Shown here: piece after piece, positions 14,798 through 32,508 of the stretch | How positions within the stretch are numbered: the stretch's first letter is position 1 | Layout of the letters: every line of letters begins with the position of its first letter | NCBI GenBank assembly: GCA_944384125.1 | Contig: CALWSF010000005.1 | Span: 29,445 to 93,444 of the forward strand | Source of the DNA: an uncultured Lachnospiraceae bacterium | GTDB lineage: Bacteria > Bacillota > Clostridia > Lachnospirales > Lachnospiraceae | Direction of reading: 5' to 3' | DNA length: 64,000 nt | Position numbers and translations under genes: made by a program | The notes under the pieces: model-generated | Told to the model about the DNA's origin: nothing | What the model saw: the letters and a program-made list of their open reading frames with translations, nothing else | Databases searched by the model: none

Positions 14798-14811
14798 AAG
14801 ACATTAACCAT

Positions 14812-15746: not shown

Positions 15747-17072
15747 CTATCTTTTAACTGCTCTGTCAAAGGCACTCAGTTCTTCCGGAGTACAGCATGA
15801 TCGAATCTGTGCTGCCAGTTCCCCATAACCGGATTTTTCCACAATACGAAGGAGAAAAATACGGTCCTTCTGCTCACTGAGCCTGTACAGCTTCCCCAAA
15901 AACTCTTTTACCTCCTCCGGAGCAGGATGCCCTGATTCACGGTAGGCCCTGTAAAAAGTGACAATCAGTACATGAAGCGTACTGGGAAGATAAGGATTCT
16001 CTTTTAAAACAGCTATGGCACAGGAAACACATTTATCAAGGTTTCCCATATTAAAATAGCACACTGCCAGACGCTCCCAGACGGACTGAAGCTGACCGGA
16101 AAGTGCCATGGCACGATTTGCATTTCCCCATTTTTCAATCAGCTCTACCGCCCTTTCCGAGTGATAAACGGACTTTTCAAGATTACCTTTGTTGTAATAG
16201 AGTATACTCGCTATATAGTCAAAATCCGCCTCTTTGGGCATTTTTTTGATTGCCTGTTCATAAATTTCTTCAAATTCTTCTTCCCTTCCGCTGTCGGCCA
16301 GAATCTGCAGAAGCCGGTAAAATGTAAGGGAAATTCTGACATTCAGCTCATCCACTTTGTCAGGGAAACGGGAAATTGCCTCTCTGTACCATTTTTCCGC
16401 ATTTTCGTTATCTCCCGTTACCTGATAGGAATCTGCCAGATACCCCATCATATCAGGATCTTCCGGGTTTTCACTGAGCTCTTTTAATATAATCGGAATA
16501 TTTCTCTTTCCCTTTGCCCCATTCAGATTTGACTCCCCGTGATAGCCCATATGAAATATAGAAAAGGCATCACTCCCGTTTACCAGATTCTTCTCTCCCT
16601 CATAAGCACATAAATCTTCGTGAATCCGGCCTTTATACCGCAGTCCCGGCAGACGTTTAAATACACGTGACTGAGTGCCCCCTACCAGAATTCTCTCCTG
16701 TTCATCCACCTGCATCCAGTCCGTGGCGACTGCATTATATTTTGTGTCTTTGAGACTTCGCAGAAACGGTAATATATTTTTGACCTGATCCTCAGGCACA
16801 TATTCGTCGGCATCCAGAAAAGCAATCCATTCTCCCGTCGCTTTATCAATAGCATAATTTTTTGCAGCCGCAAAATCATCAATCCAGGAGAAAAAATATA
16901 CTTTGGCTCCCATTTCCCGGGCAATCTCCACCGTGCGATCCGTACTTCCCGTGTCTACCACAATCTGTTCGCACACAATATCCTTCCCCCAGCTCAAAGC
17001 ACGCCGGATATTTTTTTCCTCATTTTTTACAATCATACACTGAGACAGTGACGGTATCCGTCTTATTCCCAC
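15747..17072 (-). CDS. Family 2 glycosyltransferase with TPR-like tail (copy 1)
   Basis: 441 aa, cytoplasmic. The N-terminal 230 residues are a GT-A domain (SQCMIVKNEEKN, VVDTGSTDRT, metal-binding DAD in AFLDADEYV). The C-terminal half is helical, with TPR-like repeats rich in YY/W-A motifs. This GT2-TPR architecture is shared with SunS-type protein glycosyltransferases. I chose GTG 17072: AAAGGAG is 8 nt upstream and the start matches the paralogue. It overlaps the upstream paralogue by 10 nt; both genes are 1326 nt long and clearly duplicated. Lying downstream of flagellin, it is a candidate flagellin glycosyltransferase. Confidence 0.82.
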   Translation of the reverse strand: MGIRRIPSLSQCMIVKNEEKNIRRALSWGKDIVCEQIVVDTGSTDRTVEIAREMGAKVYFFSWIDDFAAAKNYAIDKATGEWIAFLDADEYVPEDQVKNILPFLRSLKDTKYNAVATDWMQVDEQERILVGGTQSRVFKRLPGLRYKGRIHEDLCAYEGEKNLVNGSDAFSIFHMGYHGESNLNGAKGKRNIPIILKELSENPEDPDMMGYLADSYQVTGDNENAEKWYREAISRFPDKVDELNVRISLTFYRLLQILADSGREEEFEEIYEQAIKKMPKEADFDYIASILYYNKGNLEKSVYHSERAVELIEKWGNANRAMALSGQLQSVWERLAVCYFNMGNLDKCVSCAIAVLKENPYLPSTLHVLIVTFYRAYRESGHPAPEEVKEFLGKLYRLSEQKDRIFLLRIVEKSGYGELAAQIRSCCTPEELSAFDRAVKR

Positions 17073-18388
17073 TTCCCATTCTCCTTTCCAAGCGCCGCTT
17101 TCAGACAGAAAGCTTCTTCTTTTGTGAGCCATCCGTATATCTTATTTTCAAGTTCTTCCCAGCCAATCTCTTTCGCCGCTCGCAGACAGAACAGTGTCGC
17201 CTTCAGAGGCTTTCTGTCTCCATATATCCTGTGGAGAAAATTTTCCGCACTGACGGCTGCTTCCTTTTCACTCATCAAAAATGCCTTCAGGACAGCCACC
17301 AGTGTCCCCATTTCGTAGGGATTTTCCTGAAGCAGACAGCGCCCGTACTGAATACATTCATCCACTTTTCCTGCTTTCTGAGAGCAGACTGTCATCGCCT
17401 CCAGCGCCTTTGGAAGATCTCCTCCGAGAATCATAGCACGATCCCGGTTTCCAAATTTCTCCAGCTTTTCAAATGCCCGTCCTATATATTCAGAACCTTC
17501 ATCATAGTTTCCCTCTGAAGCCAGATAACGACCCAGAATATAATCAAAGTCCGGTTCTTCTGGTATACGGGATACAGCAAGAGTATATAATTTTCTTACC
17601 TTCTCCTCCTGTTTTTCGCCGGCCTCCAGCTGCATAAGACGGGAAAAAGTGGCTGCACACCGTACATTTTTCTCATCTTTCCCCATGGCTGCTATGGCAC
17701 TTTCGTACCATTTACGGGCCTGTCCTGTTTCTCCGAGACTTCCATATTCATCCCCTATATATCCCAGAATCTCACTGCTCTCCGGGTTTTCCTCAAGCTC
17801 CCGCATTAAAAGGCGAAGATTTCTGCCTTCTGTCTTTTTCCTCTCGGCTGCTTTTCCTGCGTATCCCGTATGAAGGATCGAAATTTTCCCCACCGCATCC
17901 GCCAGACAAAGCGGCCGTCCATCTTCAAAGAGAAGCTGCTCATGGATTCGTCTGTGATACCGGAGATCCGGCAGATTGCGAAACATACGGATCTGAGTCC
18001 CTGCCGAACAGACTTTTCCTTCCTCATCCAGATCAAGAAGGCTGCAGGCCACTGCATCAACACGGCTGTCGAGTTTATCCGCCAGTGCCTTCATCTTCTG
18101 CTCATCTCCCGGAGCAGGAATTTCATCCGCATCCAGAAACGCAATCCACTCTCCCTGCGCTTTTTCAATCGCAAAATTTTTGGCTGCAGCAAAATCATCT
18201 GTCCACGAAAAAGAGTATACCTTTGCCCCCATCTCCCGGGCAATTTCTTTTGTCCGATCCGTACTTCCCGTATCTACCACTATCTGCTCCAGAAGAAACT
18301 CCCGTCCCCAGGAAAGCGCCCTGCGGATATTCTCTTCCTCATTTTTTACTATCATACACTGAGAAATTCCTCTTTTTTTCTGAAGCAT
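17063..18388 (-). CDS. Family 2 glycosyltransferase with TPR-like tail (copy 2)
   Basis: 441 aa, strongly similar to the next gene over its first 100 residues (SQCMIVKNEEENIRRALSWG, VVDTGSTDRT, AFLDADEI). The C-terminal part again has helical TPR-like repeats, so both copies keep catalytic and repeat modules. Start: ATG 18388 with GGGAGAG 8 nt upstream; an ATG 15 nt earlier has no good site and would be out of register with the paralogue. It is separated from flagellin A by a strong terminator, so it probably has its own promoter or depends on read-through. Confidence 0.82.
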   Translation of the reverse strand: MLQKKRGISQCMIVKNEEENIRRALSWGREFLLEQIVVDTGSTDRTKEIAREMGAKVYSFSWTDDFAAAKNFAIEKAQGEWIAFLDADEIPAPGDEQKMKALADKLDSRVDAVACSLLDLDEEGKVCSAGTQIRMFRNLPDLRYHRRIHEQLLFEDGRPLCLADAVGKISILHTGYAGKAAERKKTEGRNLRLLMRELEENPESSEILGYIGDEYGSLGETGQARKWYESAIAAMGKDEKNVRCAATFSRLMQLEAGEKQEEKVRKLYTLAVSRIPEEPDFDYILGRYLASEGNYDEGSEYIGRAFEKLEKFGNRDRAMILGGDLPKALEAMTVCSQKAGKVDECIQYGRCLLQENPYEMGTLVAVLKAFLMSEKEAAVSAENFLHRIYGDRKPLKATLFCLRAAKEIGWEELENKIYGWLTKEEAFCLKAALGKENGKWE

Positions 18389-18440
18389 CTTCTTCTCTCC
18401 CATACTATTCTTCTATTCTCTATTGCAAAACACATAATTC

Positions 18441-18495
18441 AAAAAAGGAAAGGGAAAGCCATTCCCTTACCGGTCGAAAACGGCTTTCCCTTTCC
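18441..18495 (-). terminator. Intrinsic terminator of flagellin A
   Basis: Perfect 14-bp stem GGAAAGGGAAAGCC (18447-18460) with its complement at 18482-18495, 21-nt loop, followed on the minus strand by TTTTTT. Located 60 bp after the flagellin A stop. Confidence 0.85.
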
Positions 18496-18554
18496 AAATG
18501 ACTGAAAAGCTCAGTCTTTTTAACTGTTCTGAGTCTCAACTCACAGTTAAAAGC

Positions 18555-19388
18555 TTACTGCAGCAGGCTCAGCACGCTCTGAGGCGTTGCATTTGCCTGA
18601 GACAACATGGACTGAGATGCCTGCAGAAGAATATTATTCTTCGTGAATGCAGTAATCTCATCTGCCATATCTGTATCACGGATACGGCTCTCAGCAGCCT
18701 GAATATTCTCAGATGTTACATCCAGGTTGGCAATGGTGTGCTCCAGACGGTTCTGAGCAGCACCGAGTTTAGCACGATATCTGGAAACGGTATCAATAGC
18801 ACTCTTGATTACAGAAATAGCTTTATTAGCCTCTGTTGTACTTGTAGTACCCATTCCTACTGATTTCAGATTTCCAAGTTCAGCAGAAATTCCGCTTGCT
18901 GTCATAAGGCTGGTTCCAACACTGATGGTCTCTGCAGCTGTCGGTCCGATCTGGAATGTCATGTTCTTTCCATCAGATGCCAGCGGTTTGATACCATTGA
19001 AGTCTGTATTCTTTGCAATACGATCGATCTCGTTTAACAGCTCGTCAACCTCTGCCTGGATGTTAGCTCTTGCTGTGGAGTTATAGGTTCCGTTAGCTGC
19101 CTCGGTAGCCAGTGTGGTCATACGCTGAAGCATGGAGTGAACCTCTGTCAGAGCACCCTCTGCTGTCTGAATCAGACCAACTGCATCCTCTGCGTTCTTG
19201 GAAGCCTGATTAAGACCATTGATCTGAGAACGCATGCTCTCGGAAATAGCAAGACCTGCAGCATCATCGCCGGCACGGTTAATACGGTAACCGGAAGACA
19301 GCTTCTCCAGGTTTTTGCTCAGAGCGCTCTGGTTGATTCCCAAGTTTCTGTAAGAATTGATTGCTGCTATGTTGTGTTGAATCTGCAT
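18555..19388 (-). CDS. hag: Flagellin A (major flagellin candidate)
   Basis: 277-aa short flagellin made of D0/D1 domains only. The N terminus (IQHNIAAINSYRNLG, LEKLSSGYRINRAGDDAAGL) and C terminus (SRIRDTDMADEI, MLSQANATPQSVLSLLQ) are canonical; the central region (about 140-185) is short with no D2/D3. Subunits are exported through the filament and assembled with FliS/FliW as partners. A 110-nt leader, a CsrA-type hairpin over the ribosome site and a dedicated terminator suggest a highly expressed, separately regulated mRNA. A shadow of the upstream flagellin B operon may read into it. Confidence 0.97.
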   Translation of the reverse strand: MQIQHNIAAINSYRNLGINQSALSKNLEKLSSGYRINRAGDDAAGLAISESMRSQINGLNQASKNAEDAVGLIQTAEGALTEVHSMLQRMTTLATEAANGTYNSTARANIQAEVDELLNEIDRIAKNTDFNGIKPLASDGKNMTFQIGPTAAETISVGTSLMTASGISAELGNLKSVGMGTTSTTEANKAISVIKSAIDTVSRYRAKLGAAQNRLEHTIANLDVTSENIQAAESRIRDTDMADEITAFTKNNILLQASQSMLSQANATPQSVLSLLQ

Positions 19389-19392
19389 AATT

Positions 19393-19407
19393 CATACCTC
19401 CTGTATG
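19393..19407 (-). promoter_or_regulatory. CsrA-type hairpin over the flagellin Shine-Dalgarno
   Basis: Minus-strand RNA CATAC-AGGAG-GTATG: a perfect 5-bp stem that presents the Shine-Dalgarno AGGAG, with its GGA, in the loop, 4 nt before the ATG. AUACAGGA matches the known CsrA consensus (RUACARGGAUGU). More GGA motifs lie upstream at about 19425-19446, as in the two-site B. subtilis hag leader. CsrA and FliW are encoded at 31.7-32.5 kb. Confidence 0.7.
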
Positions 19408-19509
19408 TACTACTACTGCGGAAACCTCCCTGTCTCCACCCTCCGTCGCCGCACGGGCCCTGCCGCAACAGAATATACTGATGATTGTACTTTCATCTTA
19501 CACTTATAT

Positions 19510-19536
19510 GTATCGTGTTTTTTGCAAAAATAATAA
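19510..19536 (-). promoter_or_regulatory. Putative sigma-28-type promoter of flagellin A
   Basis: Minus strand: TTAT (19536-19533), 15-nt spacer, CACGATAC (19517-19510). CGATA is preserved, but both boxes deviate from consensus. It gives a leader of about 115 nt. The weak boxes are surprising for a flagellin gene. Confidence 0.4.
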
Positions 19537-19550
19537 GTAAAATATATATT

Positions 19551-20393
19551 TTATTTTAACAAATTCAAAATCATCTGCGGAATGGAAACTGCCTGGGACA
19601 TCATAGCCTGAGATGCCTCAAGCACAATCCGATCCTTTGTGTACGCAGTTACCTCTTCCGCCATATTGGTATCGCGGATCCGGCTTTCCGCCGAACTCAT
19701 ATTCTCATCCGTAACCGTCAGGCTGTTATGAGTATGTTCCAGATGATTCTGGGCTGCTCCCAGACTTCCCCGCATATCTGATACAGCCTCAATGGCATTA
19801 TCAATCACATCCACTGATTTTCCCGCTTCCTCCACGCTGCTGAAATCCGTTGTGTCAAGAAGCAGTGCCTTACTTCCCAGATAATACCGGTTTACATCCA
19901 GCAGCTCCTTGTCAGAAGGGCCTATCTGGAGGGTAATATTGTCCGATACCTGGGGCGGATCAATGTTGGCCGGCAGTGACGAATCAAAGAGATCAATCTC
20001 ATTAAAATCAGTGGACGATGCAATTCTGTCAAATTCTTCCAGAAGCTGGAGACGCTCCTCCTCCACAGCCTGCCTTGCACTGCTGCTGTAAGTTCCATTC
20101 GCTGCCTGAATTGCCAGCGTCTTGAGACGATCAAGCATGCTGTGAATTTCCGTCAGGGCTCCGTCTGCAGTCTGAGCAAGCCCCACTCCGTCTGTAACAT
20201 TTCGCTCCGCCTGCTTAAGACCGTTAATCTGAGAACGCATCAATTCTGATATGGCCAGTCCTGCTGCATCATCTCCTGCCCGATTAATTCTGTATCCGGA
20301 AGAGAGCTTCTCCAGCGCTTTATTTAATGACCGATTTCCAATTTTCTGATTGCGGGATGTATTTATCGCACTGATATTGTTTCTGATAATCAT
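19551..20393 (-). CDS. Flagellin B (divergent second flagellin)
   Basis: 280 aa with intact flagellin ends (LEKLSSGYRINRAGDDAAGL; SRIRDTNMAEEV; MILNLLK) but diverged from flagellin A, with a different variable core around residues 130-190 (an acidic/Pro stretch NIDPPQV). It could be a minor subunit, a filament-zone variant or an alternative flagellin. It sits last in the sigma-28-led operon, 24 bp after a glycosyltransferase, with AAGGAGG upstream but without the CsrA-type hairpin seen for flagellin A. No terminator separates it from the flagellin A promoter. Confidence 0.93.
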   Translation of the reverse strand: MIIRNNISAINTSRNQKIGNRSLNKALEKLSSGYRINRAGDDAAGLAISELMRSQINGLKQAERNVTDGVGLAQTADGALTEIHSMLDRLKTLAIQAANGTYSSSARQAVEEERLQLLEEFDRIASSTDFNEIDLFDSSLPANIDPPQVSDNITLQIGPSDKELLDVNRYYLGSKALLLDTTDFSSVEEAGKSVDVIDNAIEAVSDMRGSLGAAQNHLEHTHNSLTVTDENMSSAESRIRDTNMAEEVTAYTKDRIVLEASQAMMSQAVSIPQMILNLLK

Positions 20394-20417
20394 GATATCC
20401 TTACCTCCTTCTAACGC

Positions 20418-21491
20418 CTACAAGGCCTCCAAACGTCTTAATGCCGGCTCATATCCTTCCTTTGCCGCACGGCCATAATATTCTTTTGCCTGCTCACTCT
20501 GCCCTGTTACCTCGTACCAGACACCCAGATTATACAGAGCAAGATATGAACCTGTTCCTTTCACACTTCCCTGCCCTTCCTGGTCTCCTATCTCAAGGCA
20601 CTTTTTCCAGCTTTCCTCTATCTCTCCCAAACATCCTATATATCGCTTTACATCTGACAGCACCAGCTTCATATAATAAAGTCCCCGCAGGAAATAAAAA
20701 TCCGGGCTCTTCCGGAATTTTATTTCATTACTTTCAAACAGTCCCCCTGCTTCCTGAAGCAAATCTCCTGCCAGGTCAACCAGTGTGTAAAGATAAAGCA
20801 AAACCCCTTCCTGCCAGTATCCTTCCCCGCCATCCGACAAACGGTAAAACCGTCGAAAATAAGGAAGGCTGTTCTCCAGCTGATTTAAATTGCGAAGTGT
20901 AACTGCAACCTGATACTGATAGTACCCATCTTCAGGATGTTCTCTCTCTGCCTGTAAAAGGTACTGCAGATTTCTCTTTCCTTTCCCCTCCTGAAGATAT
21001 CCGTCATGTTTTACCGCCAGAGGAGATGCATACATTGGAAAACAGGAATCCGGCTGCTCGTGGATCATGCCCGTATAACGAACCCCACATGGCAGCAGAC
21101 GGGGCAGATAACTGCTGGAAAACCGCATCTCTCCGGTTTTTCCATCTCTGAAACAATCCTGACGAAGTATTCCTCCCAGGCATTTCTGCCGGCCTGAAAG
21201 CCACCGTTTCAGCTCATCCCGGGTACCGGACACAATCCACTCATCTCCATCCAGTATAAGATTCCAGTCTCCGTCCGAATGCGCAAGTGCCGCATTGCGC
21301 GCCGCTGAAAAATCCCCTGTCCAGACAAAGTGATATACCTCCGCTCCCATCCTCCGGGCAATCGAAGCTGTATTATCTTCCGAACCCGTATCCACCACTA
21401 TCATACGATCAACCAGTCCTCTCGCAGAGTCCAGACAGCGTTCCAGTCTTTCTGCCTCGTCTCTTACAATCATGACCAGATTAATTTTCAA
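20418..21491 (-). CDS. Family 2 glycosyltransferase with TPR-like tail (copy 3)
   Basis: 357 aa; GT-A domain with MIVRDEAERLERCL, VVDTGSEDNT and metal-binding DGD in LILDGDEW, then a shorter helical tail with a last TPR-like unit (ALYNLGVWYEVTGQSEQAKEYYGRAA is its register). It overlaps the PilZ gene by 4 nt (ATGA) and directly precedes flagellin B. That coupling makes flagellin B the most obvious acceptor, but neither the donor sugar nor the acceptor is visible in sequence. Confidence 0.8.
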   Translation of the reverse strand: MKINLVMIVRDEAERLERCLDSARGLVDRMIVVDTGSEDNTASIARRMGAEVYHFVWTGDFSAARNAALAHSDGDWNLILDGDEWIVSGTRDELKRWLSGRQKCLGGILRQDCFRDGKTGEMRFSSSYLPRLLPCGVRYTGMIHEQPDSCFPMYASPLAVKHDGYLQEGKGKRNLQYLLQAEREHPEDGYYQYQVAVTLRNLNQLENSLPYFRRFYRLSDGGEGYWQEGVLLYLYTLVDLAGDLLQEAGGLFESNEIKFRKSPDFYFLRGLYYMKLVLSDVKRYIGCLGEIEESWKKCLEIGDQEGQGSVKGTGSYLALYNLGVWYEVTGQSEQAKEYYGRAAKEGYEPALRRLEAL

Positions 21492-22114
21492 TTTTCTTCC
21501 CTTTCCTTCTGAATCTGTATCTGATAAACCAGGCTTCGTATTTTGGCCTCCGCTGCCCGCGGCAGCACCTCAAACCGGCAGCCATATCCGTATTTTCCAT
21601 GAATCATCGGGCGCATCCATCTGGTACTTGCTTCCAGTTCCCATTCACTCTTCAGAAATTTTGCCCGGAAACTGATTATTTCATCTTTAGACAACAGCTG
21701 AGAGGTAGACACAAAAAAACCTCCCGCACTGATATTCTCTATTATTCCAAAAAAACTGCCATGCTTGGCCGATTTAAATTCCTCCTCATACTGAACCGGT
21801 ACTCGCATATCCGCCTGACGCTGAATTACACTGTATGCTTTCTGAATTCTGCAGTCCGCCACCCAGTATTCGGATTCCTTCATATAATTGGGATTGCGCC
21901 GGAATACCAGTTCTGAATATGTACGGATTCTCCCTTTCCATGCATCAAAAAAATCTACGGGCAGTACAACTCTCGCATCTTTAAAATGCCCCTCTCTGAA
22001 ATACAGTAAAATCTTTTTATCATCCTGTTTTACAACCCTGGCCTCCGCCAGAGGTTTCCCATCTGTTCCGTATACAAGACAACGTTCACACGCCTTTGTC
22101 AGCATCACTCTCAC
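21488..22114 (-). CDS. PilZ-domain protein, candidate c-di-GMP receptor
   Basis: 208 aa, two-part layout like YcgR/MotI: an N-terminal beta-rich domain (1-100) and a C-terminal PilZ domain (about 95-205). The PilZ signature NISAGGFF fits [D/N]xSxxG. The RxxxR motif is degenerate: QRQADMRV has Gln at the usual first Arg, though an Arg lies one residue earlier. c-di-GMP binding is therefore possible but not assured. Overlaps the glycosyltransferase by 4 nt and follows the lytic transglycosylase by 28 bp. A brake acting on the motor would be the known family role. Confidence 0.78.
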   Translation of the reverse strand: MRVMLTKACERCLVYGTDGKPLAEARVVKQDDKKILLYFREGHFKDARVVLPVDFFDAWKGRIRTYSELVFRRNPNYMKESEYWVADCRIQKAYSVIQRQADMRVPVQYEEEFKSAKHGSFFGIIENISAGGFFVSTSQLLSKDEIISFRAKFLKSEWELEASTRWMRPMIHGKYGYGCRFEVLPRAAEAKIRSLVYQIQIQKEREEN

Positions 22115-22142
22115 TCCTTCTGCATTCCGAAATGTCTTTCTA

Positions 22143-22892
22143 TTATGTCAGCAGGCTTCCCACATCATTCTGAGCATTCATCATCATCTGAATTCTTAAA
22201 AGCTCAATCAGGCTGGCAAAGCTTTCCTTACTCATTGTAACTGTCTCCCCATTATCCTCCACTCCCTCCAGGCTCAGTCCCGAAAGAGAAAACGGAGAGT
22301 ATGATGACATCATCGCCTTCACATACAGATCCCCGTCGTAATCAGTTCCAGTGCCGCTCTGTTCTGCTGCACTGGCAGTCATATAAACTGTCTCGTCTCC
22401 CATATAGCTTTTGACCCGTTTCACATAATTCTGTGTTTCTTCATAGGGCGGAATTCCATTATACTTTTCGACGCTTCCTGGTCCTGCATTGTATGCTGCC
22501 AGTGCCAGTTCAACATTCCCGCCAAATCGCTCAAGATTTTCCCGCAGATATTTTGTTCCTCCCATAATATTCTGCCGCGGATCAAAGGGATCAGAAACGC
22601 CAAGGGCACTGGCCGTACCTGGCATAAGCTGCATGACACCCATCGCTCCTGCCCCGGAAACTGCTTTGGGATTAAAGCTTGACTCCGCCTTGGAAACTGC
22701 CCGGATAAGGTTTTTGGAAACACCGTAAATTCGGGATGCCTCATCAAAAATCTGCTCCATATAGGCAGGTGCCCCCAGCTTTTCCTTAAGTGTCTGTGTA
22801 AATCCTCCCTTTTCACTTCCGGAAGCAGACGTTTTTTCTATCCCTTTATTCTGCATGGCTGCCGCCGCGGCAGCCGATGTTACCAGTGACAT
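22143..22892 (-). CDS. Lytic transglycosylase (SLT family)
   Basis: 249 aa; cleaves peptidoglycan glycan strands with anhydromuramyl formation. SLT domain at about 45-165: catalytic Glu70 in SKAESSF, then GAMGVMQLMPGTA, and AAYNAGPGSV. There is no classical signal peptide; the N terminus is Ala-rich and polar, so export may use the flagellar type III route, as for FlgJ-like muramidases. A C-terminal 70-residue tail is unassigned. It sits inside the sigma-28-led operon, fitting local wall opening for flagella or their associated surface proteins. Confidence 0.85.
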   Translation of the reverse strand: MSLVTSAAAAAAMQNKGIEKTSASGSEKGGFTQTLKEKLGAPAYMEQIFDEASRIYGVSKNLIRAVSKAESSFNPKAVSGAGAMGVMQLMPGTASALGVSDPFDPRQNIMGGTKYLRENLERFGGNVELALAAYNAGPGSVEKYNGIPPYEETQNYVKRVKSYMGDETVYMTASAAEQSGTGTDYDGDLYVKAMMSSYSPFSLSGLSLEGVEDNGETVTMSKESFASLIELLRIQMMMNAQNDVGSLLT

Positions 22893-22920
22893 ACTTTCAT
22901 CCTTCCTCTTTCATAAATTA

Positions 22921-24132
22921 TCAAAGCTTTGTTGCAATTCCGCCGGGAGCAATATACCAGCCATCCACTATGGTATTTTCCGCCATACTTCCGTCCGCGT
23001 TCAGATAATACCAGCAATTATTCCAGTTAAGCCACCCCGTCTTCATGCTTCCGTCCGCTTCCATAAAATACCATTTTCCATCAACCAGTACCCACTGCGT
23101 CTGCATAAAGCCATATGCATTCAGATAATACCATTTGTCAGGACTCGGATTCAGCCACCCGGTTCTCAGACTCCCATCTTCTCCCAGATACCTCCATCCG
23201 TCTCCGAGATTAATCCACCCGGTCTGCATAACCCCGTTTTCATTCATGTAATACCAGTATCCATTTACAAAGATCCATCCCTTTGCCATATTTCCATTCT
23301 GGTCAAAGTAATACCACTTATCCGAGAGTTTTTTCCATGAATTTCTGGCCAGCTGTCCATCTCCGTACACATAGTTGGAACCTTTCACTTCTCCTCCGTC
23401 ACCTGCACTGTAACGGCTGACATACTGTTTTTCTTCCGTATCCAGCTCTACTTCCGTATCACGGGAAGTAACATAATTCCCCTCTTTAAAATATTTCTTT
23501 TCATCTGATGTCAATGGGACAGCTTTTACCTCATAATAATATGTAACATCATCCTTCGTCATATATGAAGACAAATCCACGCTGCTGGTCTCTACATTCA
23601 GACGTTTTACAACCTTATCATCCCCATACAGTGTTACCGTATAGCCAGGTGCAAAATCTACCTTTTTCCATACAGCTTTCCGACTGGAGGTGCTGCTCCA
23701 TCCTGCCTCGGCAGTATCTCCCAATGTCATAACAGGGCGATAATCTACCTTGACCTGCAGTGTTGTATCGTCCAGAGCCTTTGCCGAAACAAAATCTGCT
23801 CCGGTAACCTTGCACTCCGAACGATTCAGACTGGTCGGAAAAAATTTTCCCTCATCAGCAAAGAGATTTATGTCCACCCGGACCTTTTTTCCCGGTTCCC
23901 ATTTATCATAATCTGTTTTAAACTGCACATCTCCAAGAGAATATCCGTTTCCATCCGCCGTAATAACAGGATCCGGAATCTCCTCCGGCGCTCCAAAATC
24001 TGTATCAATTTTAACCGTAACTTTTTCAATTACACTGGATTCTGCTGCAAAGCTCTGAAAATCTGCCTCTGTGTACCAGAAAACAGCCATTACAGTCAGA
24101 ACACATACTAAAATTTTTTTCACTCCTGCCAT
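22921..24132 (-). CDS. Secreted choline-binding-like repeat protein A
   Basis: 403 aa. A signal peptide (KKILVCVLTVMAVFWY, cleavage near residue 30) is followed by an N-terminal domain of 215 residues that I cannot assign, then about seven 20-residue wall-binding repeats (WYYFDQNGNMAKGW type) from about 265 to the end. Such repeats bind choline or other wall polymers. The N-terminal domain is shared with the preceding gene (VSA..., KADF/KVDF..GY.VTLY, YMT), indicating a tandem duplication. Cotranscription with flagellar genes is unusual for this family. Confidence 0.82.
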   Translation of the reverse strand: MAGVKKILVCVLTVMAVFWYTEADFQSFAAESSVIEKVTVKIDTDFGAPEEIPDPVITADGNGYSLGDVQFKTDYDKWEPGKKVRVDINLFADEGKFFPTSLNRSECKVTGADFVSAKALDDTTLQVKVDYRPVMTLGDTAEAGWSSTSSRKAVWKKVDFAPGYTVTLYGDDKVVKRLNVETSSVDLSSYMTKDDVTYYYEVKAVPLTSDEKKYFKEGNYVTSRDTEVELDTEEKQYVSRYSAGDGGEVKGSNYVYGDGQLARNSWKKLSDKWYYFDQNGNMAKGWIFVNGYWYYMNENGVMQTGWINLGDGWRYLGEDGSLRTGWLNPSPDKWYYLNAYGFMQTQWVLVDGKWYFMEADGSMKTGWLNWNNCWYYLNADGSMAENTIVDGWYIAPGGIATKL

Positions 24133-24144
24133 ATCTGCTTCCTC

Positions 24145-25524
24145 CTATGGATTCCACACACCATCCGCGCCTACATAAAACCCGGCAATCTGCGCATTGC
24201 GTGCCATCTCCCCGCTTCCGGGATAAAAATAGTACCATCTGCCATCAATCTGCCACCAGCCTTCTACCATCTCTCCTCTGGAATTTGTATAATATGTCTT
24301 TCCATCACGTTCAAACCAGCCGGTAAACATCGCTCCCTGCAGACTGTTGTCCAGTGTATTCAGATAATACCAGTGTCCGTTCTGCTGAAGCCATCCGGTA
24401 TACATGGTTCCGTCCGCATTAAAATAATAATAATACGGCCCTATTACCTTCCACCCGGATGCTGCCATTGAACCCTGCGGAGCGTTTCCTTCCGCAAAAG
24501 GAAGAAAATAATACCATTTATCACCAAGACGAATCCAGCCCACTGCCATCTGACCACTGTCAAAAAGCAGGTACCGATATCCGCCAATATCCTGCCATCC
24601 TGTCATCATTGATGCATTCATATCAAAATAATACCAGAATCCGTCAATCAGGCCCCAGCCGCCTCTCGCCAGATTTCCGTCCGGATAGCGATATCTCCAG
24701 ACTGTGCCATCTTTTACCCAGCCAACTGTCTCTGCTGTCCCCGATCTGACACTTGTGCTGCTTTCCTTCTGTCCTTTTCCGTCTGAAACATAGCGATCCG
24801 TGATATTCAGTTCGCCGGATTCAATCCAGTCACTGTCGCCTCCATATTTTTTCTGCAGATCTGTACTGGGTACAGTCCGCACCTTAAAAGTATAATCTCC
24901 CGATTCCGTCATATACGGATAAAAATTATAATTTCGGGCAGAAGTCTTATCTACGCTGTAGATACGTTTTCCATTTCTGTACAGAGTGACCTCATAGTAA
25001 CCGGAATCAAAATCTGCCTTTTCCCACCTGGCTTCTCCCATATTTTTTTCATTCCAGTAAGCATCCTCCGGAGGAGAGAAATCTCCTTTCACACCATTAA
25101 TCCGCAGGGTTACAACGAGAGAATCCCCTTCTCTGCGCGCCGATACAAAACTTCCGCCGCTGATTTTTACATCAGAAGATTTATAGCTTGCAAGAAAATA
25201 TGCCTCACTTACATCCTCCGGCTCCAGGGTAACTTTCATTCTCGGCTCATCCGCCACATTTACTCCCCCTGACAGACTGTCAATCCACTCCGCCTCTGTG
25301 AGATTGTAACGGGAATTTCCGGCAGACACCCCGATTTCTCCTTCCGATACAGAGGAATCTGTCTGAATATCCGGAAGATCCTGTCCCGGCTGCAGCTTTG
25401 ATGTCACTTTCACGCTCACAGACTGTATCGGCTTAGTAGCCGCTAAAACCATCTGCGGTCTTTCACAGATAAAAGAAACGCAGGAAAGTACCAGTGCGCA
25501 GATTGCCAATCTTTTTTTAATCAT
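24145..25524 (-). CDS. Secreted choline-binding-like repeat protein B
   Basis: 459 aa. Signal peptide (KKRLAICALVLSCVSFIC, mature from about residue 28), then an unassigned domain homologous to that of protein A (GGSFVSARREGDSLVV, KADFDSGYYEVTLY, YPYMTESGDYTF), then about eight wall-binding repeats (WYYFDMNASMMTGW type) to the C terminus. Start ATG 25524 follows AGGAGGACACGG; a longer frame lies inside the upstream gene. It overlaps that gene by 8 nt, so translation is coupled to the FlhB-like protein. Predicted to be wall-attached. Confidence 0.82.
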   Translation of the reverse strand: MIKKRLAICALVLSCVSFICERPQMVLAATKPIQSVSVKVTSKLQPGQDLPDIQTDSSVSEGEIGVSAGNSRYNLTEAEWIDSLSGGVNVADEPRMKVTLEPEDVSEAYFLASYKSSDVKISGGSFVSARREGDSLVVTLRINGVKGDFSPPEDAYWNEKNMGEARWEKADFDSGYYEVTLYRNGKRIYSVDKTSARNYNFYPYMTESGDYTFKVRTVPSTDLQKKYGGDSDWIESGELNITDRYVSDGKGQKESSTSVRSGTAETVGWVKDGTVWRYRYPDGNLARGGWGLIDGFWYYFDMNASMMTGWQDIGGYRYLLFDSGQMAVGWIRLGDKWYYFLPFAEGNAPQGSMAASGWKVIGPYYYYFNADGTMYTGWLQQNGHWYYLNTLDNSLQGAMFTGWFERDGKTYYTNSRGEMVEGWWQIDGRWYYFYPGSGEMARNAQIAGFYVGADGVWNP

Positions 25525-25822
25525 CCGTGTCCTCCTGTTTTGGCTGTTTTGCCGGCAATGTAAACTGAAGAAAATATATATAAATTTCCACAATTGCCTG
25601 ATACAGCTCCTGTGGTACTTCCGCTCCCAGTTTCAGCTGTGACAGGAGGGATGCAAGAGAATCATCCTCATAAACAGGAATTCCTGCCTCCATGGCTGTC
25701 TCTGTGATTTTCTGTGCCATATATCCCATTCCCGATGCCACAATTACGGGAGCTTCATTTTTATCAGGGTTGTATTTAAGAGCTACCGCTTTCTGTTTCA
25801 TCAAATCGTCAAACTCGGACAT
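25517..25822 (-). CDS. FlhB C-terminal-domain homologue (YlqH-like)
   Basis: 101 aa corresponding to the cytoplasmic C-terminal domain of FlhB (AVALKYNPDKNEAPVIVASG aligns with AIALRYNPHKDRAPVVLAKG of FlhB in this window). It lacks the membrane part and the autocleaving NPTH loop. B. subtilis has such a stand-alone copy, YlqH. It overlaps the YlqG-like gene by 14 nt, matching the ylqG-ylqH pair. Known for related proteins: possible substitution for the substrate-switch domain of FlhB. Here its coupling to secreted proteins is noteworthy. Confidence 0.85.
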   Translation of the reverse strand: MSEFDDLMKQKAVALKYNPDKNEAPVIVASGMGYMAQKITETAMEAGIPVYEDDSLASLLSQLKLGAEVPQELYQAIVEIYIYFLQFTLPAKQPKQEDTDD

Positions 25823-27236
25823 TTATGCCCCCTCCTCTTCTGGCAAGCTCCGGGAAAACTTCTTCCAGGCGTGTCTCAGCTGTCAGACTGCCAACAGATA
25901 TCTGTCTGCAGGCAATTCCATTTTTTTTCAGAATATCCTTCACATCGCCGCCAATCCGTTCTGCAGAAGCCGCAAGCGAATCCGGAACCTTCATCTGAAT
26001 TTTTGCAGTTTCCTCATTATAAAACAGAATCATCTCAAAATGCCCCAGCGTTTCTACACTGAACTTAAAAAAAAGCTTTGTCCCTCTGGCGCCATTCTCA
26101 TTTCCCTCTGCGTCCGGATCAATCCAGGCCTCCATCGTCCCATGATTTTCCTGAAACTGAAAAGGTAAAAACAGATGCAGCAGCGGCATATACACACTCT
26201 GATTCAGAAGAAGGCTGTTGAGCGCATTGTAATACTGCTGAACACTTTCGGAACCTGCTCCCCCTTTTGCTCCTTCCGCAAGAAAAGACAGCAGAGAATT
26301 TTCCTTTCCTTCCGTCCTGTTTCCAAGAGAATCCATCAGTTTCCGCATCTCCATCTCCGCCTCTTCCGGGCTCATCTCTCCGGCAAACAGATTTGAATTG
26401 GCCAGACGCTGAAATAATGTCTCTATCTGATCTGATCCCCCGCTTTCATATCGGGCTGCATAATAGATCAGAAGCATCACGGCCTCCCTTACCGGCCCAT
26501 AGTCATGACTGGAAGAAATATATGAGGCCAGAAACGGAAGCAGATTATTGTTCAGAACCTGTGTATTATGCGCCACATCTCCATTCTTTGCTCCCCAGTC
26601 CATCATATCCGCAAGCTGCCTGAAATCTTCTTTATATTGACGATGCAGGAGAATTTCAATATCTCTTGTAAGCAGAAACATCTGCCGGAGCAGATGTTCT
26701 CCGGAAACACCCGCACTGTAGCTTTTTAAAAACTGACCAATTCTGTTAAGGGTCTCTTCTGACGGCTGCCGCTGGCCAAGCAATGCACGAAGCCGCTCAA
26801 AAAACGGTCCGGAAAATAACACCTGCTGCGAAACAGCCTCTTTCAGAAGCCCGGCCAGAGCCTCAGGCGAATCGGCAGACATACTGTCAAGCAGATACTG
26901 TGCCAGTTTTGCCATCTCCGTCTGTCCGGTTCTGGCAAAAAACTGCGTTTTCCCGGAAAAAATTCCCTCAAGAAAAGACGAAACGGCAGAATTCTGAGCC
27001 AGTTGTTTCAAAAAAGCGCCGTAATTGCTGTCGTAATCAACAACGCCATAAAATCCCTGTTCCTGTGAACCGGCGCCCATCTTTTCCTGTCCGTCCGCCC
27101 GTACAACTCTGGAAGGATCCACCGGATTCTGTACTTTAAGTCCGGCAACCTGACGACCATCCGCCTGTCCGTCTGACGGATACCTTCCATATTCCGGCTT
27201 CAATTCCGGAGTTGTTACCTGTAATATATTTGCCAT
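25809..27236 (-). CDS. FliK-like export-control protein (YlqG-like)
   Basis: 475 aa. Residues about 1-60 are polar and Gly/Gln-rich, the middle is largely helical, and the last 100 residues resemble the FliK/Flg_hook C-terminal domain (HFEMILFYNEETAKIQMKV, ILKKNGIACRQISVGS). With the FlhB-like gene it reproduces the ylqG-ylqH pair. A separate, ordinary FliK is encoded in the main operon at 56.3-57.4 kb, so this is a paralogue. GGAGG 4 nt before ATG. First gene of the sigma-28-led operon. Confidence 0.72.
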   Translation of the reverse strand: MANILQVTTPELKPEYGRYPSDGQADGRQVAGLKVQNPVDPSRVVRADGQEKMGAGSQEQGFYGVVDYDSNYGAFLKQLAQNSAVSSFLEGIFSGKTQFFARTGQTEMAKLAQYLLDSMSADSPEALAGLLKEAVSQQVLFSGPFFERLRALLGQRQPSEETLNRIGQFLKSYSAGVSGEHLLRQMFLLTRDIEILLHRQYKEDFRQLADMMDWGAKNGDVAHNTQVLNNNLLPFLASYISSSHDYGPVREAVMLLIYYAARYESGGSDQIETLFQRLANSNLFAGEMSPEEAEMEMRKLMDSLGNRTEGKENSLLSFLAEGAKGGAGSESVQQYYNALNSLLLNQSVYMPLLHLFLPFQFQENHGTMEAWIDPDAEGNENGARGTKLFFKFSVETLGHFEMILFYNEETAKIQMKVPDSLAASAERIGGDVKDILKKNGIACRQISVGSLTAETRLEEVFPELARRGGGINVRV

Positions 27237-27291
27237 AACGCCTCCACACGATAAAAAATCATAAAAACGGCTTAATCATTTCTATAACTAT

Positions 27292-27319
27292 ATATCGGTA
27301 CAATACCATCAGATTATTA
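27292..27319 (-). promoter_or_regulatory. Sigma-28-type promoter of the YlqG-like operon
   Basis: Minus strand: TAAT (27319-27316), 16-nt spacer, ACCGATAT (27299-27292). CCGATAT is a full match to the SigD -10. Leader about 50 nt. Back to back with the flgM promoter. Confidence 0.68.
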
Positions 27320-27388: not shown

Positions 27389-27479
27389 AATAAATATAAC
27401 AAGTTAAATTTTGTCTCTGACAATTAAATTTGAGGAAGGAGGGGCCCGATCAGCCCATTTCCGAAAGGAGATATGGATT

Positions 27480-27791
27480 ATGAATCAAATTTATCAGACG
27501 ACTGGCATTACTCCGGGTTTCCCCTCTTCTGCACCCTGCGGAGGGGAACGGCAGCCCGTAAAAAACATTCCCGGAAATTACGATACGGTCACATTACATT
27601 CCGGCACATTATTTTCTACTGATGACAGATCATTTGCTGCTGCCATTGCCAGAAAGCTTACCGGAGAAGTCATTGAAGAATCAGGGAAAAATACATCCCC
27701 TGAAAAACTGGCAAGACTTAAGCGTGAGGTTTCCGACGGAACCTATACTCCCAATGCACAGCTGATTGCCAGACGGCTGCTGGGTTACTGA
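27480..27791 (+). CDS. flgM: Anti-sigma-28 factor FlgM
   Basis: 103 aa, small and mostly disordered, with the typical FlgM C-terminal helices (SPEKLARLKREVSDGTYTPNAQLIARRLL) that bind FliA. It holds sigma-28 until it is exported through the finished hook. Start ATG 27480 with AAAGGAG 9 nt upstream; a longer frame from a TTG would cross that site. First gene of the late operon; its own sigma-28-like promoter gives the usual feedback. Confidence 0.93.
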   Translation: MNQIYQTTGITPGFPSSAPCGGERQPVKNIPGNYDTVTLHSGTLFSTDDRSFAAAIARKLTGEVIEESGKNTSPEKLARLKREVSDGTYTPNAQLIARRLLGY

Positions 27792-27824
27792 TTACGCTTT
27801 ATTTATGATGGAGGACATCATTAC

Positions 27825-28295
27825 ATGCAGAATATTACTACAGAATCACTGAATACTTTTACGGTTCTGATTCAGGAACTGACAGACGTTGTAAAAGAAA
27901 TTTCTCAGATTGAAAACGAGAAAGCCCAGGCTGTATCACTGTATCATCACACAGATCTGGAAGCCTGCATCCGAAAAGAGCAGGCTTCTATTCTGAAGCT
28001 TAAAGGGCTGGAGGCAAAAAGACTGGAATACATGCGTGAGCATGGGTGGGAAGGGCTTTCATTCCGCCAGGTGCTTCCTCTTCTGCCGGAATCGCAGTCC
28101 GGAATACTGTCTCCCTTTTTTGATGATCTGAGCAGAGCTGTGGAGGGGCTTTCCTCTTCCAGACAATCTGCAGAGCGAATTTTAAATTTGCGCATGCGCA
28201 GTTTTCAGACTTTTCTCGAACAGGAGCATCGCAATTCAGCAATGAAAAATAACAACAATTCCCATAACCTTTCAATGCGGGAAAAATATGTCTGA
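27825..28295 (+). CDS. flgN: FlgN-family export chaperone for hook-filament junction proteins
   Basis: 156 aa, predicted all-helical with heptads (LIQELTDVVKEISQIENEKAQAV is such a stretch) and a polar Asn-rich C terminus. Position between flgM and flgK and length fit FlgN, which keeps FlgK and FlgL export-competent. Sequence conservation of this family is low, so context carries much of the call. GGAGG upstream of ATG. Confidence 0.82.
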   Translation: MQNITTESLNTFTVLIQELTDVVKEISQIENEKAQAVSLYHHTDLEACIRKEQASILKLKGLEAKRLEYMREHGWEGLSFRQVLPLLPESQSGILSPFFDDLSRAVEGLSSSRQSAERILNLRMRSFQTFLEQEHRNSAMKNNNNSHNLSMREKYV

Positions 28296-28341
28296 ATATT
28301 ATACGTTTACTTCGAATCAGATAAGGAGGATACATTAAAAT

Positions 28342-30000
28342 ATGGTTAGAGCAACTTTTGCAGGTTTTACGACTGCCCTTTCCGCACTTCAGGCCAATCA
28401 AAAACGTCTGGATATAACAGGGCAGAATCTTGCTAATATGAATACTGTAGGCTACACAAGACAGCAGCTGGATGTTTCCAGCCTGAACTTTACCAAACCA
28501 ACGGGACATTATTCCAGCGACCCTATGGCAAATGTGGGATTTGGAGTGGCAATGACAGGGGTGTCTCAGATTCGTGATCCCTATCTGGATATCCAGTACC
28601 GCCTTCAGATGTCAAAATCCAGCTACAGCGATTCCATGCAGACTTCTCTGGACTCTCTGGCAGCTATTCTGGATGAGACGAACGTTTCCGGTATCCGGCA
28701 GGCATTCGATGACATACAGTCAACTCTGACAAGCATGCAGGATCCCGCAAAAGTCAATGATCCGATATATGAGAGCGAACTTCGCACCCGTATGCAGCAG
28801 CTGACCAACCTTTTAAATTCTTCCTCCAAAGATATATCTCAGGCAATTAAAAATGAGTATACCAAACTGGACGGAACAGGCAGCAGCGAAAATGGTTACG
28901 TAGATGAAGTGAATGATATTTTAAGACAGATTGGAGATCTTAACCGGCAGATAAAAACAAATGAACTTGTAGGACAGTCAGCCCTTGAACTGAAGGATGA
29001 GCGAAATGTGCTGCTTGATGAACTGGCCGGCTACCTTCCCATTGAAGTCACATACTATAAAGATGAAGCTCATGACGGGATTGATGCCAACGGACAGACT
29101 GACACAGACGATGCAAAAAGCGAAATATACGACTTAGATAAGAATGGAAATATCATCGGAAAAAAAGAATGGCCCGATGATCTCAGAGTTGAACTCGTCT
29201 ACACAGACGGAAACAATGTCACACAGAAAATAACCCTGATAAATGGTACAGAGGGAAAAGGCAGCGAAAATTACGGTTCCTTAAAAGTACAGGCTGACCA
29301 GGATGATCCTACAAAAGCATCCGTTTCTTTTACTGGCGCAGGAAAGACAACACCTGACTGCTCCTTTGGTTATGATTCTGCCAGTGGAAAACCATCCACG
29401 AACCAGCTTTCAGGTGGCTCAATTGCCTCCAGCCTGGATATGCTTGTGCAGGACGGTACAGGCACAAGTGTTCGGGGTTACCAGTATTACATGAATAAAC
29501 TCGATACACTGGCAAGAACTTTTGCAGAGGTTATCAACAAATGTAACACAGACCATAAGGGTGACGCTTTACTGACAGCTCAGCCCAATGGCGGAAATAT
29601 AACTGCCGCCAATATTGGACTAAGCAGTGACTGGGTTGCAGGAAATATTCACATTGCCTCAGATGGAGACAGTACTAATGGCGCCATTCTGGATATGCTG
29701 GCTTCCATGAAAAATACGCATACTGATTTGGATAATAATTCTTTTGCGGATTTTGCCAACCATGTTTCCACCATCCTGGCAAATGATTCGTATAATAATA
29801 CAAACTCATTAAAAACCAATGTCACAGTATTGAATGGAATACAGAATTCAAGAGACTCTCTATCCGGTGTGAGTCTTGACGAGGAAGCGTCTAACATGAT
29901 GTCCTACATTTCAGCATACAATGCTGCTTCCCGTCTTATGACAACACTTGATGAAGCTCTGGATACCCTGATTAACGGAACCGGAGTAGTCGGACGATAA
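28342..30000 (+). CDS. flgK: Hook-filament junction protein FlgK (HAP1)
   Basis: 552 aa. The N-terminal rod-type motif (ALSALQANQKRLDITGQNLANMNTVGYTRQ region, residues 11-40) and C-terminal heptad domain (LDEEASNMMSYISAYNAASRLMTTLDEALDTLI region) are those of FlgK. A central insert (about 230-360) is the variable surface domain. Exported by the flagellar system and assembled between hook and FlgL. AAGGAGG lies upstream, with a rather long 12-nt spacing to the ATG. Confidence 0.97.
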   Translation: MVRATFAGFTTALSALQANQKRLDITGQNLANMNTVGYTRQQLDVSSLNFTKPTGHYSSDPMANVGFGVAMTGVSQIRDPYLDIQYRLQMSKSSYSDSMQTSLDSLAAILDETNVSGIRQAFDDIQSTLTSMQDPAKVNDPIYESELRTRMQQLTNLLNSSSKDISQAIKNEYTKLDGTGSSENGYVDEVNDILRQIGDLNRQIKTNELVGQSALELKDERNVLLDELAGYLPIEVTYYKDEAHDGIDANGQTDTDDAKSEIYDLDKNGNIIGKKEWPDDLRVELVYTDGNNVTQKITLINGTEGKGSENYGSLKVQADQDDPTKASVSFTGAGKTTPDCSFGYDSASGKPSTNQLSGGSIASSLDMLVQDGTGTSVRGYQYYMNKLDTLARTFAEVINKCNTDHKGDALLTAQPNGGNITAANIGLSSDWVAGNIHIASDGDSTNGAILDMLASMKNTHTDLDNNSFADFANHVSTILANDSYNNTNSLKTNVTVLNGIQNSRDSLSGVSLDEEASNMMSYISAYNAASRLMTTLDEALDTLINGTGVVGR

Positions 30001-30051
30001 GTTTCTTTGATTGGCTCATTTCATATCGCTATTTTAAAGGAGGAACGCAAT

Positions 30052-31179
30052 ATGCGTGTTACCAATGCATCAACCAGCCGGAATTTCTCTGCCTCTGTCA
30101 ATGAGGTGCACCAGCGGCTGAATAAAAGTATGGATAAAATCTCTACCGGTAAAGCTTATTCTGCAGCGGCAGAAAATCCGCTTGCATACTATGAAGGCAA
30201 AAAAATTGATAATCAGTACCAGGATGTGCTGAGTAAGATGTCGCTGATTACAGATGTCAAAAATCGTCTTTATCAGCAGGAGCTGGGAGCCAGGGACATA
30301 CAGAGTATTCTGGCAGAAGCCAAAACAAAAGTACAGTATGCCAGAACAGAAACCTCTTCACAGGATTCCACCCTGGATACTTTAAGGCAGGATCTTCTCC
30401 AGAAACAGCAGGCTATCGTGAATGATCTAAATGCTCAGTTTCAGGATTTCTACATTTATGGCGGAAATGATCTCTCCACTCCTCCGTTCTCTCTGAGTGA
30501 AGACGGAATGACACTGACTTTTACTCATACTTTTCCCGGGGACACGGCTCCTACGGAAGTTAATATGCAATTGACAAAGCAGCCTGATGGATCCTATATA
30601 TATAATATCGATCCAGCAGACGAGGACACATTGAGAAAAGCAATGGAAGAGCAGGGGCGTGTGGACATCGGATACGGCTCTTCTGATGATATAAATACAC
30701 TTCTGGACACTTACACAGGCGGTTTTAATCTGCTGACCGGAGTCAGCTCTGACGCTGTCCGCGCTGATACGGCCCATAATATTAGCATTACTGATAAAAT
30801 AAACAGCAGTGCCCTTACACTTATCGGATCTGCCGCGATGGCAATAGGAGATTATATCAATACCCCGGAAGATCAGAAAGCAGATGCCAAGGGTGTTCTT
30901 GATGATGTGCTGGGCAGCACTATTGATTCCATGACGGAGGCAGAACATATGCTGAGTGTCTCCTACTCGGATCTGGGAAATAAATATAATCTTCTGGAAG
31001 ATACAGAAAGCAAGCTGACGCTTTCAAAAAACAATCTGACTGAACAGTACACTGATAAACTGGGAGCAGATCCATATGAATCTATTATTGAGATGTATAA
31101 TTACAGATACTCCTACAATGCGGCACTCCAGGTAGGTTCACAGCTCTTTGGTTCTTCTCTTTTTGATTTTGTTAAGTAA
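30052..31179 (+). CDS. flgL: Hook-filament junction protein FlgL (HAP3)
   Basis: 375 aa with a flagellin-like N terminus (MRVTNASTSRNF, LNKSMDKISTGKAYSAAAENP) and a C-terminal helix ending SSLFDFVK. Start ATG 30052 is preceded by GGAGGAACGCAAT; an in-frame ATG 45 nt upstream has no ribosome site. Forms the second junction zone, under the filament. 51 bp after flgK. Confidence 0.95.
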   Translation: MRVTNASTSRNFSASVNEVHQRLNKSMDKISTGKAYSAAAENPLAYYEGKKIDNQYQDVLSKMSLITDVKNRLYQQELGARDIQSILAEAKTKVQYARTETSSQDSTLDTLRQDLLQKQQAIVNDLNAQFQDFYIYGGNDLSTPPFSLSEDGMTLTFTHTFPGDTAPTEVNMQLTKQPDGSYIYNIDPADEDTLRKAMEEQGRVDIGYGSSDDINTLLDTYTGGFNLLTGVSSDAVRADTAHNISITDKINSSALTLIGSAAMAIGDYINTPEDQKADAKGVLDDVLGSTIDSMTEAEHMLSVSYSDLGNKYNLLEDTESKLTLSKNNLTEQYTDKLGADPYESIIEMYNYRYSYNAALQVGSQLFGSSLFDFVK

Positions 31180-31215
31180 AAACGATTTACGATTCTGATA
31201 TAAGGGGGTGTCTTT

Positions 31216-31722: not shown

Positions 31723-31750
31723 ATTAAACACATAACATGAGGGTTTTATT

Positions 31751-32221: not shown

Positions 32222-32508
32222 TTCTGAGACGCAAAAAAAATGAGAGTTTTCTAATAGGAAAGAATATTCGTATTACCGTTATAGAATGTGCTTCTGACGG
32301 TGTTCGGATTGCAATTGATGCTCCTAAACATATTTCCATTATCCGGGAAGAACTGGCTGAGGCAGAGAAAGTCAATCAGGACGCTCTGGGACCGGAAGCT
32401 GCCTCTTTAATGCCGCTCCATCAGATACTTTCTGTCTTTCCGGCATCATCTGAAAAGTCAGATGATGCAACGGATAAAAATCAAAAAGAAGGCGAAACCG
32501 AATCTTAA
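32215..32508 (+). CDS. csrA: Translational regulator CsrA
   Basis: 97 aa. The first 60 residues are the CsrA dimer fold (MLILRRKKNESFLIGKNI, VRIAIDAPKHISIIREEL). A 35-residue acidic, polar C-terminal extension (SEKSDDATDKNQKEGE) goes beyond the family's usual 60-75 aa. It should bind GGA hairpins such as the one at the flagellin start. GGAGGAAGG sits inside the fliW end. Last gene of the flgM operon; a terminator follows. Confidence 0.96.
   Translation: MLILRRKKNESFLIGKNIRITVIECASDGVRIAIDAPKHISIIREELAEAEKVNQDALGPEAASLMPLHQILSVFPASSEKSDDATDKNQKEGETES

Follow-up and report, generated by a model that had tools for sequence, protein, structure and literature searches.

A sigma-28-led flagellar operon of Lachnospiraceae that joins a free-standing FlhB C-terminal domain to putative wall-binding proteins and a lytic transglycosylase

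Background

Flagellum-linked cutting of peptidoglycan by way of the exporter route is known from FlgJ, and the SigD regulon of Bacillus holds flagellin together with autolysins. The gate recognition motif of early flagellar export substrates has the form F-x-x-x-hydrophobic. Early flagellar subunits combine a non-polar extreme N-terminus with such a motif (residues 36-40 in FlgD), which docks on the C-terminal domain of FlhB (FlhB-C), according to an excerpt of PMC8983047. Free-standing FlhB-C domains, here called FlhX, have been reported in several groups: Helicobacter HP1575 is termed a spare part in the title of a reference, a 'flhX-fliK' pair is mentioned for Nitratiruptor in the accessible part of PMC9321776, and FlhX is counted as a flagellar component of Actinobacteria in a further extract. 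PMC12153297, available in part, deals with how the rod crosses the wall in B. subtilis. Here we analyse a stretch of 64,000 nucleotides from an uncultured Lachnospiraceae bacterium (GCA_944384125.1, contig CALWSF010000005.1, positions 29,445 to 93,444), hereafter the window, in which flhX and a gene for a remotely FliK-like protein, ylqG, head an operon of genes with predicted wall and surface functions.

Results

Gene order and its conservation

The genome to which the window belongs measures 3.44 Mb and is 94% complete; within the window lies a large cluster of flagellar and chemotaxis genes. A first inspection of the letters (the sequence-only reading) had described eight minus-strand genes separated by overlaps or short gaps. 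All eight are present in the order described: ylqG, flhX, two choline-binding-type repeat proteins (CBP1 and CBP2), an SLT lytic transglycosylase, a PilZ-domain protein, a glycosyltransferase (GTa) and flagellin B. Their junctions lie between -14 and +37 bases, namely -14, -8, +12, +28, +28 (+37 from the later PilZ start), -4 and +24 (Table 1). For CBP1 the start at 25593 was replaced by the Met at 25524, which was checked; in the CBP alignment the window row starts one codon early, with an extra Arg before this Met.

To place this arrangement among relatives the FlhX alignment was scanned against one genome per species (84,980 species); 400 relatives were confirmed and the best 80 loci kept. 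They were picked by closeness, so that the sample is biased towards the window's lineage; it includes Hungatella, Enterocloster, Oribacterium, Eisenbergiella, [Eubacterium] cellulosolvens, [Clostridium] aminophilum and many other Lachnospiraceae. YlqG adjoins FlhX in 78 of the 80, the other two being L112, with a 422-base gap, and L129, where the sequenced piece starts near FlhX and YlqG is not on it. A divergent flgM is found in 72 of the 75 loci with room for it. Downstream genes were counted in the 63 loci with more than 6.5 kb beyond FlhX: SLT is present in 61, PilZ in 57 and a glycosyltransferase (GT) in 53, while CBP1 and CBP2 occur together in 38, are both missing from 25 and are never found singly. 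The order CBP1-CBP2-SLT-PilZ-GT is broken in none of the 63, and this comparison is not empty for 61 of them because these hold at least two of the five kinds. All five are present in 33 loci, of which 22 also have a flagellin. Gene order in relatives was one of the points on which the sequence-only reading had agreed to be judged, and it came through.

A quick tree of YlqG and FlhX has 77 rows, in 74 of which the presence or absence of the CBPs could be scored. It requires 8 changes of this state; gain and loss of the pair are not distinguishable on it, and the window row forms a long branch of unsure placement. L082, which has broken frames, was left out of the hydrophobicity, motif and tree counts, and L095, L097 and L129 out of the tree.

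A less biased sample was made of 299 genomes of the family (298 genera). FlhA was found in 155, among them all 28 genomes with a YlqG match, of which 26 are full-length (one split over two contigs) and 2 weak and partial. Among the 26, a PilZ gene lies nearby on either strand in 17, two genomes have an SLT beyond an opposite-strand PilZ gene in addition to those with SLT directly in the row (see Discussion), and one contig ends before FlhX; the remaining YlqG/FlhX genes have che or fli genes as neighbours. Across the order, YlqG occurs in 26 of 295 sampled genomes. In our reading the YlqG/FlhX unit is the older one, the wall genes being a feature of the lineage. The FlhA scores of the 26 genomes with full-length YlqG are among the lowest, suggesting that these genomes have a flagellar lineage of their own within the family.

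The sigma-28-type promoter

The ylqG promoter TAAT-N17-CCGATAT stands 62 bases before the YlqG start and has one -35 mismatch to the Butyrivibrio sigma-28 consensus quoted in the available part of PMC3720852. With one -35 mismatch allowed and dinucleotide shuffles as null, 37 of the 77 regions upstream of ylqG, that of the window included, have the consensus and 40 fall short of it; the shuffled mean is 1.25 and the maximum 5. For [CT]CGATAT alone the figure is 56 of 77, against a mean of 2.6 and a maximum of 7. L095, L097, L102 and L129 were left out of the promoter count. A sigma-28 score matrix placed 55 of 71 regions above the 99% null level; having been trained on these very sequences, it is not taken as proof. 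Within the window the strict form TAAA-N14-17-CCGATAT has no match, and single sites of the matrix scan are weak because shuffled scores, up to 16.1, exceed most real-site scores (7.4 for the ylqG site). It is the recurrence in relatives that supports conserved sigma-28 control of the ylqG-led operon. The CCGATAT-type promoter announced near 27.3 kb by the sequence-only reading is present and conserved, and the late module that this reading inferred is supported by the conserved promoter and gene order.

The transglycosylase and its N-terminus

The SLT enzyme has an invariant glutamate, E70, in 25 aligned rows, which we take to be the catalytic residue; it also possesses a low-complexity linker and a conserved C-terminal tail. 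N-termini were classified by a simple hydrophobicity count with a cut at 1.8. A Sec-like hydrophobic stretch was found in only 1 of 72 SLT frames; it is present in 42 of 46 CBP1 and 37 of 41 CBP2 frames. CBPs were considered as clients of the export gate and rejected, since most have Sec-type N-termini.

The SLT N-termini align poorly, save for an MSLVTS-like start in many of them and one motif, F[QR][NTS][VAI][LF], near residue 31. The window's SLT begins MSLV, and similar starts were seen in many of 40 N-termini, a comparison made with no control set. A looser form, F..[VITASL][LFIMVY], lies upstream of the SLT domain in 69 of 72 frames, against a mean of 13.2 and a maximum of 25 in 1000 shuffles. 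Columns 0, +3 and +4 of the motif stand out among poorly conserved flanks, in rows that were themselves chosen by the motif. In the window the pattern is found at a comparable position in FliE (residue 34), FliK (30), FlgE (43) and one rod-type protein (41), and YlqG matches it at residue 62; it was not found in flagellins A and B, FliD or any of nine cytosolic proteins examined. Over residues 1 to 55 it is matched in 64 of 72 SLT frames, 10/67 PilZ, 4/59 GTa, 10/46 CBP1, 14/41 CBP2, 1/34 FlaA, 17/71 FlgM and 10/68 FliW. On these features the SLT appears to be a flagellar export substrate. To us the locus is most interesting for having a sigma-28-led wall enzyme that carries an early-type export motif and is encoded next to a free FlhB-C domain.

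The FlgJ rod-binding domain was not found in this 94%-complete genome, which encodes two SLT proteins only, as found. In a relative, at L090:10495-12768, an SLT protein of 757 residues combines two SLT-like segments with a long tail of low complexity.

FlhX and YlqG

FlhX matches FlhB C-terminal structures (PDB 3b1s_B, 1.1e-18) as well as the C-terminal part of Bac_export_2 (1.5e-20), in agreement with the likeness proposed earlier for this YlqH-like gene. It starts at the FlhB cleavage point and has neither NPTH nor the transmembrane part; the genome retains a full FlhB with NPTH. Against TIGR00789 (flhB_rel) it scores 90.9 bits, under the curated cut-off of 117.35. A YED-x-SL stretch, invariant in 16 aligned rows, differs from the window's own FlhB. 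Assignment of FlhX as an FlhB-C paralogue is supported by these comparisons. FlhX frames often begin MSEF[DE]xLM, a gate-motif-like string just before the FlhB-C domain (in the window from 25822 downwards).

YlqG is a more distant case. It has no Pfam match, and hence no Flg_hook domain (PF02120) by Pfam; a PDB search gave nothing notable (best E 0.39), and alignment with the single FliK of the window was not significant (E 0.46). A conserved stretch of NY..F...L type is present in 75 of 76 frames. Eight further loci were compared, taken from other genomes because they encode a second Flg_hook protein or match YlqG weakly: FlhX is present in six, and in three of these (L212, L216, L217) its neighbour weakly matches both the FliK-C and the YlqG-C models. 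The resemblance to the FliK C-terminal part that the sequence-only reading had pointed out stands as a weak and remote profile likeness (figures in the Discussion; L184, picked on the wrong strand, was dropped from the FliK set). With moderate confidence we consider YlqG a diverged FliK-C-type partner. Since the window also holds a complete FlhB and FliK, YlqG and FlhX are additions and not replacements; the 'modified export gate' advanced earlier stays a hypothesis.

Wall-binding proteins, PilZ, glycosyltransferases and flagellins

The repeats of CBP1 and CBP2 are akin to those by which known wall hydrolases and surface proteins bind choline or glycans, and both proteins are putative wall binders. 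A third protein with choline-binding repeats is encoded at 38651-39613 on the minus strand among chemotaxis genes, with a CheW/response-regulator (CheV-like) gene on one side and the gene of a ParA-like ATPase on the other.

The usual cyclic di-GMP motifs of PilZ domains are RxxxR and [DN]xSxxG. The second is retained as NISAGG; the first is replaced by RQxxxR in 18 of 26 aligned rows, the window included, the others having RHxxxR (4), RRxxxK (3) or another form (1). Because RQxxxR replaces the usual arginine pair, cyclic di-GMP binding by this protein, the only PilZ found in the genome, is doubtful, and the input of this messenger suggested by the sequence-only reading is weakened.

Among arginine codons CGT accounts for 9 of 12 in flagellin A and 3 of 16 in flagellin B, a use that suggests high expression of flagellin A. 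The junction of GTa with flagellin B is tight in the window; a GT-flagellin B gap of at most 100 bases is found in only 3 of 18 relatives, and flagellin B was rejected as a conserved member of the operon, so that its earlier inclusion holds for the window and rarely beyond. The interval first assigned to the operon also contains flagellin A with its own weak sigma-28-like site at 19516 on the minus strand, a terminator-like hairpin and two more GT2-TPR genes. A third flagellin gene is found elsewhere in the genome on a small contig (G000:C112:3754-4164).

Two neighbours recur in relatives. A nucleotidyltransferase-like gene (PF14907, 32510-33703, minus strand) adjoins csrA and has the same place in many of them. 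A C39-like peptidase gene (14725-15729, plus strand) follows cheB, convergent with the end of the array, and reappears past the cassette in several, e.g. L065 and L125.

Table 1. Positions of the operon and associated features in the window
Feature	Position	Strand	Remark
Sigma-28-type promoter TAAT-N17-CCGATAT	27292..27319	minus	kept 5' of ylqG in relatives
YlqG-like protein, 475 aa, remote FliK C-terminal likeness	25809..27236	minus	no Pfam match
FlhX, free-standing FlhB C-terminal domain, 101 aa, without NPTH	25517..25822	minus	Bac_export_2 C-terminal part, 1.5e-20
CBP1, Sec-type N-terminus, N-terminal domain and choline-binding-type repeats	24145..25524	minus	
CBP2, second choline-binding-type repeat protein, Sec-type N-terminus	22921..24132	minus	
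SLT lytic transglycosylase; no Sec-type N-terminus, C-terminal tail conserved	22143..22892	minus	PF01464, 2.2e-32
Gate-recognition-like motif FTQTL, SLT codons 31-35	22788..22802	minus	
PilZ-domain protein	21488..22114	minus	1.7e-9; start GTG 22114 or ATG 22105
GT2-TPR glycosyltransferase GTa	20418..21491	minus	
Flagellin B	19551..20393	minus	minor one suggested by codon use
Weak sigma-28-like site TTAT-N16-ACGATAC, 5' of flagellin A	19510..19536	minus	
Flagellin A	18555..19388	minus	major one suggested by codon use
Terminator-like hairpin 3' of flagellin A	18450..18468	minus	
GT2-TPR glycosyltransferase GTb	17063..18403	minus	
GT2-TPR glycosyltransferase GTc	15747..17132	minus	
Divergent late operon flgM-flgN-flgK-flgL-orf-fliW-csrA	27411..32508	plus	FlgN, FlgL below Pfam cut-offs
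Complete FlhB with NPTH	46182-47255		
FliK	56264-57448		
FliA-like sigma factor gene	43246-44022		

Discussion

We find it somewhat probable that the ylqG-led genes form a sigma-28-driven late flagellar accessory operon whose wall enzyme leaves the cell by the flagellar gate, served by FlhX and YlqG. FlgM would leave the cell, as in known flagellar control, and sigma-28 would transcribe the divergent flgM-csrA operon together with the ylqG-led one. The SLT would use the flagellar type III exporter as its way out, with the Fxx[VAI][LF] motif docked on FlhB-C or on free FlhX, and may cut peptidoglycan where flagella pass the wall, in a FlgJ- or CwlQ-like role. YlqG and FlhX would act at the export gate as a pair of the FliK-C/FlhB-C type, CBP1 and CBP2 would go out by Sec and bind the wall, and the GT2 enzymes may glycosylate the flagellins. 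A bolder version seems to us improbable: after the normal switch FlhX and YlqG, as a second pair for docking and switching, would maintain or restore early-type export, the late-made SLT leaving through finished or growing flagella and the CBPs marking or sealing the hole.

Common timing could account for part of these data. The genes would share a late flagellar promoter and act separately, as in Bacillus, with YlqG/FlhX a spare part of no special role; the absence of the CBP pair from 25 of 63 loci, the position of most family-sample YlqG/FlhX beside che or fli genes with no SLT run, the spare-part title given to H. pylori HP1575 and the listing of the SLT-family CwlQ of B. subtilis under sigD (in an excerpt of PMC10653849) are all in line with this. 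Nevertheless, none of the 63 loci breaks the order and the CBP genes are either both there or both absent, over the deep divergence seen in the tree; this suggests more than shared timing, and we hold mere co-regulation to be rather doubtful. The SLT may also be an ordinary early-type substrate destined for the next flagella, flagella being built asynchronously and sigma-28 being active while new basal bodies are in rod/hook mode; no special gate would be needed. We regard this as possible, short of probable: the signal is laid out as in rod and hook subunits and the FlgJ rod-binding domain was not found in the genome, yet the lasting neighbourhood of FlhX/YlqG and SLT is left unexplained. A role of CBP1, CBP2 and SLT in the separation of motile cells or in their adhesion to surfaces, away from the flagellar site, agrees with the kinship of the CBP repeats to those of wall hydrolases and surface proteins; it appears unlikely given genes placed inside a flagellar operon and an SLT without a Sec-type N-terminus.

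Several observations weigh against our main reading. The SLT of the window itself has an alanine-rich start that scores 1.75, just below the cut. The strict motif is absent from the window's FlgD, FlgC-like protein and another rod-type protein, and the pattern lies within residues 15-80 of FlgL (27), FlgK (67) and FlgM (75). In the first 55 residues it is also matched by 66 of 79 FlhX and 52 of 71 FlgN frames; being short, it is not specific alone. Gate-docking substrates are normally early ones, while the operon of the SLT is late. The YlqG-C profile, compared with FliK-C, gives a P of 0.003 (0.072 or worse for eight unrelated profiles) but a probability of only 10%. CBP-type repeats are common in the genome (64 stretches in 25 reading frames, three of these frames in the window). 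Finally, of the 26 genomes of the family sample with full-length YlqG, 9 have an SLT on the same strand next after FlhX or, where CBPs intervene, after these, and 5 have the CBP pair; the window is counted in both.

A free FlhB-C domain beside a FliK-like gene is given no reason beyond 'spare part' in the portions of the literature available. A late operon that pairs FlhX/YlqG with a wall enzyme bearing an early-type export motif suggests a concrete client and job for it, and provides a lead on how the flagella of gut Lachnospiraceae pass the wall, this bacterium included, in whose genome the FlgJ rod-binding domain was not found.

In agreement with the sequence-only reading, which knew of no system so composed, no paper describing a YlqG-FlhX-CBP-SLT-PilZ-GT operon was found in the open-licence PMC literature. 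With regard to FlgJ the likeness is one of proposed role only, the window enzyme having an SLT domain. FlhX shares with HP1575 and YlqH the FlhB-C sequence, the start at the FlhB cut and the lack of NPTH; it differs in its sigma-28 site, in the wall genes that follow and in the YED-x-SL stretch. CwlQ of B. subtilis has an SLT domain and sigma-28-type control as well (PMC10653849, in part), whereas the window's SLT lies in an FlhX/YlqG operon and has a low-complexity linker and a conserved C-terminal tail. The flgM-flgN/fliC motility locus of Roseburia and Eubacterium resembles the present one in the flgM...csrA late locus of Lachnospiraceae and in the sigma-28 promoters of flagellins; in contrast, its pilZ belongs to a fliO-pilZ cluster, and a YlqG-FlhX-CBP-SLT row is not mentioned in the accessible part of PMC3720852. 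The parts are of known kinds, and FlhX beside a FliK-like gene is known; their union in one operon and the export-tag-like motif of the SLT look new.

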